Positions 7,558 to 11,558 of a DNA stretch of 64,000 nucleotides are shown here, one piece after another. The notes under the pieces were generated by a model, which saw only the letters and a program-made list of their open reading frames with translations, was not told the origin of the DNA and made no database searches. The position numbers and the translations under genes are program-made. Source of the stretch: Archaeoglobus sp. JdFR-27 (lineage in GTDB: Archaea > Halobacteriota > Archaeoglobi > Archaeoglobales > Archaeoglobaceae); NCBI GenBank assembly GCA_002011235.1, contig MTMO01000007.1, positions 1 through 64,000 on the forward strand. Reading direction: 5' to 3'. The first letter of the stretch is position 1. Every line of letters begins with the position of its first letter.

Positions 7558-7812
7558 TTATCCAGCCTCCAAGAGTTCAACTCCATCATCAGTTAATTTC
7601 AGCACCCCTTTTTCCTCAACAACAAAGCCTTCTTTTATCAACCAATCCAGATTGAATTTTAGCTGGAAATCAGTCAAATTAAGTTCTTTTTGAACTTCTT
7701 CTCTTGTTTTTCCGTGAATTCCTATAACAGCTACGATTTGTCGCCTGTACGGGCTTAATGATGCTTTGAAAAGTCTCTCGTGATGCTCCCTATCTCTTTC
7801 TTTCTCCACCAT
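7558..7812 (-). CDS. Small winged-helix transcriptional regulator
   Basis: 84 residues forming one winged helix: SPYRRQIVAVIGIHG (helix 1), KTREEVQKELNLTDFQLKFN (recognition helix region), then the wing GFVVEEKGVLKLTDDG. It resembles the protein at 40639-40959 in this window in fold and spacing, so the two are probably paralogues. Its ligand and targets are unknown. It is convergent with the DUF401 gene. Confidence 0.75.
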   Translation of the reverse strand: MVEKERDREHHERLFKASLSPYRRQIVAVIGIHGKTREEVQKELNLTDFQLKFNLDWLIKEGFVVEEKGVLKLTDDGVELLEAG

Positions 7813-9413: not shown

Positions 9414-10142
9414 CTATTTGATAAACTCATCCTTCAGAAAGATAATATTTCCCCTTCCCTTCTTAACTTTCTCAACTATACCCCTTCTTTCAAGATCCGC
9501 AATCATCAAACTAACTTTTGCTTCCGAATAACCGAGCTTTTTCCTCAGATCCCTTTGTGAGATCCTCCCTCCTTCTTTAACCAATACTTCGAGTATTTCC
9601 TTCAAATCTTCAGGAAGATCCGTAACCTTTTCTTCTTTAAATTCGACAAAATCCGGCTTTTCACCTTTGGATTTAGATTTAAAAATAAAAACTGCAACTA
9701 TCACAATCAAACCAATCAAAGGTATCGCATAAATGTAATAGATGTAATTGTTGGAATTTTGACCATCAACTAAGAATTCCACATCGTTTATTTCTCCAAT
9801 TTCAGGATATTCCAATTTAGGGAAAAGAACCAAGTCTATAACATATTTCCCTTCTTCTACAATCGTGACATTTTCCTCAGCATAAAGCTCTGATCCTTTT
9901 GTAGCAAAGTAAGCTTTAAGTTTATAGTTGCCAGGTGGAACCTCAAACGCATAGCTCCCATTTTCCGTGACCTTTTTTTGGATAGGAGTTGTATTTATCT
10001 CCACTATAACCCCGTTGACAGGTTCAAGTGTTTCCCAGGAGAAGACCTTTCCATGGATTACCGCTGCATTAGCAGTCGCTAAGAATAAAGAGAATGTTAT
10101 CAGAAGCATCAATGGCATCACAAGAGCTTGCAGTCTCCCCAT
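9414..10142 (-). CDS. Membrane-anchored winged-helix protein with extracellular carboxypeptidase-regulatory-like domain
   Basis: 242 residues. The order is: signal peptide (1-26, MPLMLLITFSLFLATANA), an extracellular beta domain like the carboxypeptidase regulatory (transthyretin-like) fold (27-100, with GKVFSWETLEPVNGV), a transmembrane helix (about 132-153), a charged linker, and a C-terminal winged helix (about 175-240, ILEVLVKEGGRISQRDLRKK). This topology puts a DNA-binding domain inside and a ligand-type domain outside, so one-step transmembrane signalling is plausible. The divergent exported gene at 10380 is the obvious candidate target. Confidence 0.8.
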   Translation of the reverse strand: MGRLQALVMPLMLLITFSLFLATANAAVIHGKVFSWETLEPVNGVIVEINTTPIQKKVTENGSYAFEVPPGNYKLKAYFATKGSELYAEENVTIVEEGKYVIDLVLFPKLEYPEIGEINDVEFLVDGQNSNNYIYYIYAIPLIGLIVIVAVFIFKSKSKGEKPDFVEFKEEKVTDLPEDLKEILEVLVKEGGRISQRDLRKKLGYSEAKVSLMIADLERRGIVEKVKKGRGNIIFLKDEFIK

Positions 10143-10379
10143 CTTTAGAAATGATGTCCAGATGACTTTTAAATCTTCCTATATCCATAAAATCATGAGT
10201 AAAAGTTTGTGAGTGAATTCTCAAAATTTTTCTCTGAATTTTCTTAAAGTTAAATAAAATCTCTGGCTCTTTTGTAAAGTAAAATAAAGGTTTATAAAGC
10301 AATTTAAGTGCAAAAAAATCCGTGTTACTGAAAGTATTCTTAAATTTAAAAGCTTCCACATACTTCTGAGGTGATGTGT

Positions 10380-11558
10380 GTGACGGCGGGAAAAAGAAAA
10401 GTGGGAAGGATGCTGGGGTTTTCAGCGTTGCTGATTGTGTTATTGCTTGTCTCGATAGCCTCAGCAATGGATGTAGGAAAAATGGACTTTAAGAAAATAA
10501 AAGAGAAGTACATGAGAGACAAAGCAAGGCTTAGAAGCCACCATTTCGGAATAGTGATAAACGAAGATACCTTCGATGAGGCTAAAGAGTGGTTGCTTGC
10601 AAGCGACGATCTTGCGGTTGCCTCACTGCTTAGCATCAAGGAAAAGATAGAGAACAGCCCCGTTAACTATCCAGAAAAGGATGCTTTACTAGAGGAGATC
10701 GATGGACATATAGCCGATATATCTGCTGTTAGAGAGGATATTGGGAACGCTGCCACAGTTGAGGAACTTAAGGATGCGGCAAAGGAGTTGAAGAAAGAGT
10801 GGTTGGAGGCAAAGGTTTCACTCAAAAAAGCGATAGGGCTAAGATGGATATACATCATGGAGAAAATGCTGGATAGAGCAGATAAAATTGCAGAAAGAAT
10901 TCAGGAGCTCACAGAAGAATATCAGGCACAGGGTAAAGATACAACTTTGCTGGAGAGATGGCTTGAGAAGTTCACCGCTGATACGGAAAGAGCAAGGGAA
11001 AAGGTTGAAGAGGCTAAAGAGAAACTGATGGGGCTCGAAAGAAATAGACAGGTTAACAGATTTTTGCTTAAGGAGAACATTGCGTTGAAGAAAGCAGTGA
11101 AGTACATGCACCACTCCCACTTCAAACTCAAAAGGATAATCTGGTTTATCAATCACCAGCAGACCGGAGCCGTTGACATCGAAGGAACTGGAATCCTATT
11201 CGCAGCTGGCAACGGTAGTGTTAGCATCGAGGGAAGCGGAATTGTGAAGATCTGCGGAAATGGAACGGTAACAGCTCCAGCCGATAACGTTGTGGTAGCT
11301 GTAGGATTCGGTGAGAAGCAAGAGGATAACGGAACCGTAACTTATACAGGGGAGGGCAAGGTTATAGTCAGAGGAGAAAACATCACGGTTACAGCTGAAG
11401 GGGAGCTAAAGGTTTTCGCCAAGGGAAGTGGAAGTGTACACCTTGAGGGGACAGGAGTTTACAAGACCAAAGGATTCACAGTAAATTCGACAGGCTTTGA
11501 AGAGCAAGAGGTAACTGAGGAAGTGCAGGAAGAGGTTGAGGAGGAACTTACTGAGTAA
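10380..11558 (+). CDS. Exported protein: coiled coil plus glycine-rich beta repeats
   Basis: No named family is recognised. The GTG at 10380 is preferred because GAGGTGAT (10368-10375) sits 4 bases before it. GTG and ATG codons at 10371 and 10374 lie inside that ribosome site. The order is: signal peptide (MLGFSALLIVLLLVSIASA), a long charged alpha-helical/coiled-coil region (residues about 30-255), then about 110 residues of short alternating strands (GTGILFAAGNGSVSIEGSG and similar) suggesting a beta helix or adhesin-like stack. The tail is acidic with no cell-wall sorting signal. It is probably on the cell surface and is divergent from the membrane regulator. Confidence 0.75.
   Translation: MTAGKRKVGRMLGFSALLIVLLLVSIASAMDVGKMDFKKIKEKYMRDKARLRSHHFGIVINEDTFDEAKEWLLASDDLAVASLLSIKEKIENSPVNYPEKDALLEEIDGHIADISAVREDIGNAATVEELKDAAKELKKEWLEAKVSLKKAIGLRWIYIMEKMLDRADKIAERIQELTEEYQAQGKDTTLLERWLEKFTADTERAREKVEEAKEKLMGLERNRQVNRFLLKENIALKKAVKYMHHSHFKLKRIIWFINHQQTGAVDIEGTGILFAAGNGSVSIEGSGIVKICGNGTVTAPADNVVVAVGFGEKQEDNGTVTYTGEGKVIVRGENITVTAEGELKVFAKGSGSVHLEGTGVYKTKGFTVNSTGFEEQEVTEEVQEEVEEELTE

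Follow-up and report, generated by a model that had tools for sequence, protein, structure and literature searches.

A membrane-spanning winged-helix protein paired with an exported protein across archaeal lineages, and a direct-repeat array as its candidate operator

Few membrane-acting regulators are known in archaea, and the control of surface genes in euryarchaea is poorly mapped. Among the closest described systems, ArnR and ArnR1 of Sulfolobus acidocaldarius are membrane-bound one-component activators of a surface structure, and their boxes, inverted repeats of the form TCGAC-N5-GTCGA within -43 to -84, lie upstream of the BRE/TATA (PMC6396743). CsmR of Haloferax binds a semi-palindrome, likewise upstream of the BRE/TATA (PMC13286277). 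In Vibrio, the ToxR box is TNAAA-N5-TNAAA, a direct repeat in 10-bp steps (PMC8517210, PMC4829181); ToxR carries an OmpR-type winged helix, and its inside domain comprises residues 1–134 (PMC8517210).

Here, we analyse a divergent gene pair in a window of 64,000 nucleotides (the whole stretch of DNA under study) from Archaeoglobus sp. JdFR-27. One gene, designated REG, encodes a predicted membrane-spanning winged-helix protein with a DUF7343 domain; the other, SUR, encodes a predicted exported protein. In the open-licence PMC literature, our searches found no mention of DUF7343 and listed no paper that names the REG-SUR pair or the array that precedes SUR. We consider it likely (probability of about 0.7) that REG is a membrane-tethered one-component regulator dedicated to SUR, which reads the T(N)AAG array and most likely activates its target. 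The features of the locus are as follows.

9414–10142, minus strand: REG open reading frame, 242 aa, a DUF7343 protein and predicted membrane-spanning winged-helix regulator (ORF list, Pfam, AlphaFold2, fold matches).
9819–10064, minus strand: REG outside domain, residues 27–108, a transthyretin/carboxypeptidase-D-like beta sandwich (AlphaFold2 pLDDT >90; Foldseek and VIA-align matches).
9669–9755, minus strand: REG membrane helix, residues 130–158, followed by KSKSKGEK, inside-positive (AlphaFold2 and sequence).
9435–9611, minus strand: REG DNA-binding winged helix, residues 178–236, with recognition region SEAKVSLMIADLERRG and wing KKGRGN (Pfam, alignment, fold matches).
10166–10174, minus strand: putative REG TATA box, ~28 nt 5′ of the ATG (from sequence).
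10245–10308, plus strand: putative operator, a T(N)AAG direct-repeat array in 10-bp steps (from sequence; conserved in relatives).
10330–10334 and 10340–10349, plus strand: putative SUR BRE (GAAAG) and TATA box (TTAAATTTAA), respectively (from sequence; the motif recurs upstream of SUR homologues).
10380–11558, plus strand, open from 10371: SUR, a predicted exported protein with signal peptide, helical bundle, Gly-rich beta tail and acidic C-terminus.
10488–11153, plus strand: SUR helical region, residues 40–261 in the 395-aa reading (AlphaFold2).
11160–11492, plus strand: SUR beta tail, residues 264–374 (AlphaFold2; weak profile similarity to the T4 gp5 spike beta-helix).

The AlphaFold2 model of REG (mean pLDDT 86) contains a helix at residues 2–20, the sandwich at 27–108, the membrane helix at 130–158 and the winged helix at 178–236. 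The sandwich matches carboxypeptidase-D transthyretin-like domains with Z ~12 and rmsd 1.5–2.0 over 78–80 residues, and the inside domain matches MarR winged helices with Z ~10 over ~68 residues. Residues 178–236 were assigned by Pfam to DUF7343 (PF24034; 1.2e-18, 67.1 bits versus a cut-off of 27.6), and CarboxypepD_reg was matched at 5.5e-6, under the Pfam cut-off. The predicted topology places the beta sandwich, which follows a signal peptide, outside and the winged helix inside, with one membrane helix between them on the same chain. All 37 aligned REG orthologues contain DUF7343 (E≤1e-3), with almost no variation in the winged helix. Each of the 18 full-length distant REG proteins checked retains SE(A/S)K-SL in this domain, together with a (K/R)-GR-N wing. 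That REG orthologues are found across the order, with a winged helix so little changed, argues that the anatomy of the pair is not due to chance. With a putative TATA box ~28 nt before the ATG, the REG transcript would be leaderless.

Like ArnR and ArnR1, REG appears to be an archaeal one-component regulator of the membrane-bound type, and the array before SUR shares with their boxes a position upstream of the BRE/TATA. ArnR is described with an N-terminal HTH, a HAMP-like and a sensor domain, two C-terminal membrane helices and inverted-repeat boxes (PMC6396743); in REG, the winged helix is C-terminal, a single membrane helix follows the signal helix, and the intergenic region shows no notable inverted repeat.

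The longest SUR open reading frame runs from 10371 to 11558 on the plus strand (395 aa), and translation more likely starts at the GTG at 10380, with GAGGTG at 10368–10373 as the ribosome site. The signal peptide was assigned by eye. In the AlphaFold2 model (mean pLDDT 81), helices occupy residues 40–261 and are followed by strands at 264–374. Both genes lie where the earlier note placed them, and both proteins match what it had read from the letters: an outside beta domain, one membrane helix and an inside DNA-binding domain in REG are borne out by AlphaFold2, the fold matches and Pfam, and the divergent surface-type protein with a beta-repeat tail reappears as a protein predicted to be exported by its signal peptide, with the tail modelled as beta structure.

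No usable family for SUR came from Pfam, NCBIfam or PDB sequence searches; the window protein has no Pfam match at E≤1e-3, and its whole model has no Foldseek match to a solved relative at E≤1e-3. The VIA-align hits, with Z up to 12.5, were to helical bundles and fell in a range common for that tool; they were discarded as relatives. The tail (11160–11492) matches the central spike beta-helix of T4 gp5 over ~40 profile columns (E ~1e-5), a match that composition could explain, the tail being Gly-periodic. In families f17 and f26 (G078:C3, G127:C1, G156:C32), the coil and beta-tail parts match as separate neighbouring frames, as if split in two genes. At 12 of 30 Archaeoglobales loci (L009, L012, L015, L019, L021, L022, L023, L025, L026, L028, L029, L030), a small lipoprotein gene starts no more than ~8 bp from the SUR stop, in most cases overlapping the stop by 4 bp. 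The lipoprotein has a Thr/Pro-rich spacer and a conserved C-terminal end such as LKELQDIENISFNL. This abutting or overlapping arrangement suggests that SUR may be held at the surface by a lipid-anchored partner. No such lipoprotein gene adjoins the window's own SUR.

Within the Archaeoglobales, REG matches (E≤1e-3) are found in 52 of 57 genomes, including all 42 of high quality. By the REG family profile, read by eye, 41 of these 42 contain an orthologue, and the exception (G021) also has no SUR. SUR adjoins REG in 8 of the 48 genomes inspected. Five of the six genomes of the window's genus have the genes adjacent, always in divergent orientation (G000, G009, G010, G011 and G012, the adjacency in G011 being judged from two contig ends that share ~100 bp); in G013, of the same genus, REG and SUR are unlinked. 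The pair is also divergent in G014 and G016 of genus g3, and in G055, from another family, the genes point the same way and flank a small lipoprotein gene. A REG neighbourhood conserved across the order was considered and rejected: the neighbours vary by genus (RecJ-like, NAD-synthetase-like, a second HTH gene; names assigned by eye). In the window, an 84-aa winged-helix-like ORF lies downstream of the RecJ-like gene (7558–7812, minus strand; HTH_45 E 1e-4, below cut-off), and four further genomes of the genus have a relative at the corresponding position (cluster c8). In genus g11 (L073, L074, L078, L085), the sequence immediately 5′ of REG is tRNA-like with a long insert and resembles an intron-bearing tRNA-Trp.

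Conservation of the pair is far wider than expected. When 392 genomes of the phylum were searched with a SUR profile (A1) and a REG profile (A2), 132 had SUR matches (E≤1e-6) and 176 had REG matches (E≤1e-10), many of the latter only weak. Outside the order, at least 62 of the 78 SUR-positive genomes carry a REG-type gene within 2 kb of SUR, in divergent orientation in 58 and in tandem in 4; in the four tandem cases, the REG-like gene is weak. This count combines two sources. Among the matches listed, REG and SUR lie within 2 kb of each other in 49 of the 61 distant genomes that have both, all 49 divergent; and a fuller listing of 20 genomes added thirteen more adjacent pairs, nine divergent and four tandem. 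The genes are not adjacent in 12 of the 78 (G078, G127, G144, G158 at 2.8 kb, G216, G252, G256, G279 at contig ends, G315 at 4.4 kb, G365, G387, G390), and the adjacency count leaves out G091, G120, G240 and G353. Co-occurrence was tabulated by eye for the 335 genomes outside the order, using cut-offs of E≤1e-20 for REG and E≤1e-6 for SUR and taking no account of kinship: 73 have both genes, 5 SUR only, 3 REG only, and 254 neither. Six genomes (G085, G174, G298, G319, G338, G382) encode a second, paralogous pair, SUR2 followed by REG2 in the same direction, separated by ~2.3 kb in G174 and by <1 kb in the other five. The hosts of this second pair, and the genomes of family f5, are presumably Methanosarcinaceae-like.

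The earlier note had proposed a one-component surface-sensing circuit, to be judged by conservation of the pair in relatives and by an inverted repeat sought in 10143–10379 as the operator. The regulator-target part of that proposal holds up, through adjacency in at least 62/78 genomes outside the order (the genes are mostly unlinked in the nearest relatives, with 8/48 adjacent), through co-occurrence, and through a conserved cis-element. The suggested operator does not: arms of inverted repeats in this interval are only short or widely spaced, none is notable, and we rejected them as an operator. Instead, the interval contains a direct-repeat array in 10-bp steps, with units at 10245, 10255 (TAAAA), 10275, 10285, 10295 and 10304 (TTAAG, off by one).

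The consensus of the array is TNAAG-N5-TNAAG, and it lies upstream of the SUR BRE/TATA. The REG-SUR intergenic regions of the window's genus all have TAAAG units in 10-bp steps. In other genera, with REG located at a distance, SUR homologues are preceded by the same array, and so is the second SUR in the window's genome. Exact 10-bp T.AAG pairs are present in 25 of 30 Archaeoglobales SUR upstream regions, REG-linked or not (30 of the 31 SUR loci, G034 being dropped for its 24-bp upstream; two are from the window's genome). Of 40 distant REG-SUR intergenic regions (from 49 adjacent pairs, leaving out G058, G228, G260, G275, G283, G329, G344, G359 and G374), 26 contain such a pair; the other 14 lack an exact pair, though the REG winged helix is conserved. 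Control promoters, which are upstreams of other genes at Archaeoglobales loci only, have a 10-bp T.AAG pair in 3 of 504 cases and a three-unit array in none, and dinucleotide shuffles yield on average less than one T.AAG pair per whole set. The distant set played no part in finding the TAAAG array, and the looser T.AAG spelling was chosen after viewing that set; with strict TAAAG, the distant set still contains 10 pairs at this spacing, spread over 10 genomes, versus a shuffle mean of 0.2.

Pairs in the sense orientation outnumber those in antisense by 43 to 0 in the Archaeoglobales and by 38 to 5 elsewhere. At the second base, 68 of 72 Archaeoglobales units have A, and units elsewhere have A, C or G; the T, A, A and G are set by the search pattern. 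Perfect three-unit arrays occur at 32 loci in the order, 25 of them 16–109 bp before a SUR-family gene; the remaining seven are G000:C19, G000:C24, G012:C9, G012:C73, G038:C19, G038:C43 and G011:C206 (the same site as G011:C139). A reversed control pattern gave 17 rows versus 36 over the 57 genomes (summed by hand). A further 10-bp TAAAG repeat, at G000:C19:34648–34692 (L122 1490–1545), follows a Met/Gly/Tyr-rich exported protein and lies near a separate membrane winged-helix-like gene (L122 1803–2339, minus strand); this may be a second similar pair, or a plain tandem repeat.

Given that REG and SUR are paired in many archaea and that the repeats usually stand before the SUR promoter, REG probably controls SUR directly from the membrane. 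We suggest that the inside winged helix would read T(N)AAG half-sites spaced 10 bp, that is, on one DNA face, so that several membrane REG molecules could align side by side along the array, immediately ahead of the SUR BRE/TATA. Bound there, REG would most likely recruit or stabilise basal factors and turn SUR on. The outside beta domain presumably reports the state of the cell surface, possibly SUR itself.

Divergent regulator-target pairs are often repressor circuits, and the pairing evidence would fit equally well if REG were a SUR repressor that, bound to the array, keeps the promoter blocked or looped until released by a surface signal. We think this rather improbable, given where the array lies. 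From array end to TATA, the distance is 39–41, 49–51 or 59 bp in 19 of 19 measured Archaeoglobales promoters (out of 25 with a pair) and 70–71 bp in 8 of 14 measured distant promoters (out of 26; two distant values, 320 and 419, are evident mispicks). The distance thus shifts mostly by whole helical turns. In 31 of the 33 measured promoters the array is 39–71 bp upstream of TATA, and BRE, TATA and start site are not overlapped. Such upstream placement is that of the archaeal activators CsmR (PMC13286277) and ArnR (PMC6396743). Activation of SUR by REG is accordingly the more likely of the two modes.

The REG promoters of unlinked Archaeoglobales genomes carry no array. The array therefore follows SUR, and the binding of REG to it is suggested by association; autoregulation by REG, which was considered as an explanation of the array and rejected, lends no support to a link between the two. 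Since the array also stays with SUR when REG is elsewhere, another regulator, soluble and common to these archaea, might bind it, the adjacency of REG and SUR then reflecting some other tie (a different step or gene). This too seems unlikely: no regulator family other than REG was found to recur next to SUR, REG does so across several families and as two paralogues, and its DNA-reading surface is near-invariant across the array-bearing lineages. In two f7 genomes (G246, G172), SUR lacks an array, and the membrane winged-helix protein beside it differs in its recognition region; the gene order there is another one, with SUR downstream of the regulator and perhaps without a promoter of its own. 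Three genomes have REG without a detected SUR. Dimeric binding to inverted repeats is the usual mode of MarR-type winged helices, which counts against REG on a direct repeat. Finally, it is very doubtful that the array is a mere AT-rich core promoter feature, such as a repeated BRE-like or DNA-bending element, for although the unit resembles the BRE (GAAAG) and its surroundings are AT-rich, arrays of three units occur almost exclusively at SUR genes, and the exact 10-bp phasing, the fixed orientation and the rarity of pairs in controls (3/504) mark a specific site.

We therefore favor REG as a membrane-tethered regulator of SUR. By their conservation, REG and SUR are a genuine and widespread pair of probable regulator and target, with a direct-repeat cis-element that is likewise conserved; regulator, target family and candidate operator can be proposed together. 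This provides a first lead on the function of DUF7343 and of the unannotated exported protein family represented by SUR. Among the lineages concerned, Methanosarcina has laboratory genetics.

How, then, does REG compare with ToxR? As in ToxR and CadC, an outside sensor, a single membrane helix and an inside winged helix would be joined on one polypeptide, and ToxR likewise controls surface proteins. The ToxR box is strikingly close to the SUR array in unit, spacing and direction (TNAAA-N5-TNAAA versus TNAAG-N5-TNAAG). This is a likeness of working and not of family membership, since no OmpR-type domain is found in REG: Trans_reg_C (OmpR/PhoB-type) is absent from the REG Pfam scan, and the 37 orthologues matched 15 families without it among them. 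The winged helix is MarR/DUF7343-type in REG and OmpR-type in ToxR, and the inside domain is C-terminal in REG, whereas that of ToxR is N-terminal (residues 1–134). The REG system also differs in having an archaeal promoter, longer arrays and apparently one target family. If REG reads the TNAAG-N5 repeats, then two unrelated families of tethered winged helices, in different domains of life, would have come independently to a 10-bp direct repeat, which would point to a physical reason, namely that tethered monomers are set on one DNA face. Tentatively, we can imagine REG as a convergent archaeal counterpart of ToxR, in which membrane-anchored MarR-type monomers sit in a row on the 10-bp-phased TNAAG array and hold the DNA at the membrane, while the outside beta domain senses the exported product of the gene under REG control, or the lipid-anchored complex of that product. 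Such a closed loop would set the amount of one surface component, and the circuit would predate the split of the Archaeoglobi, the Methanosarcinales and related lineages.
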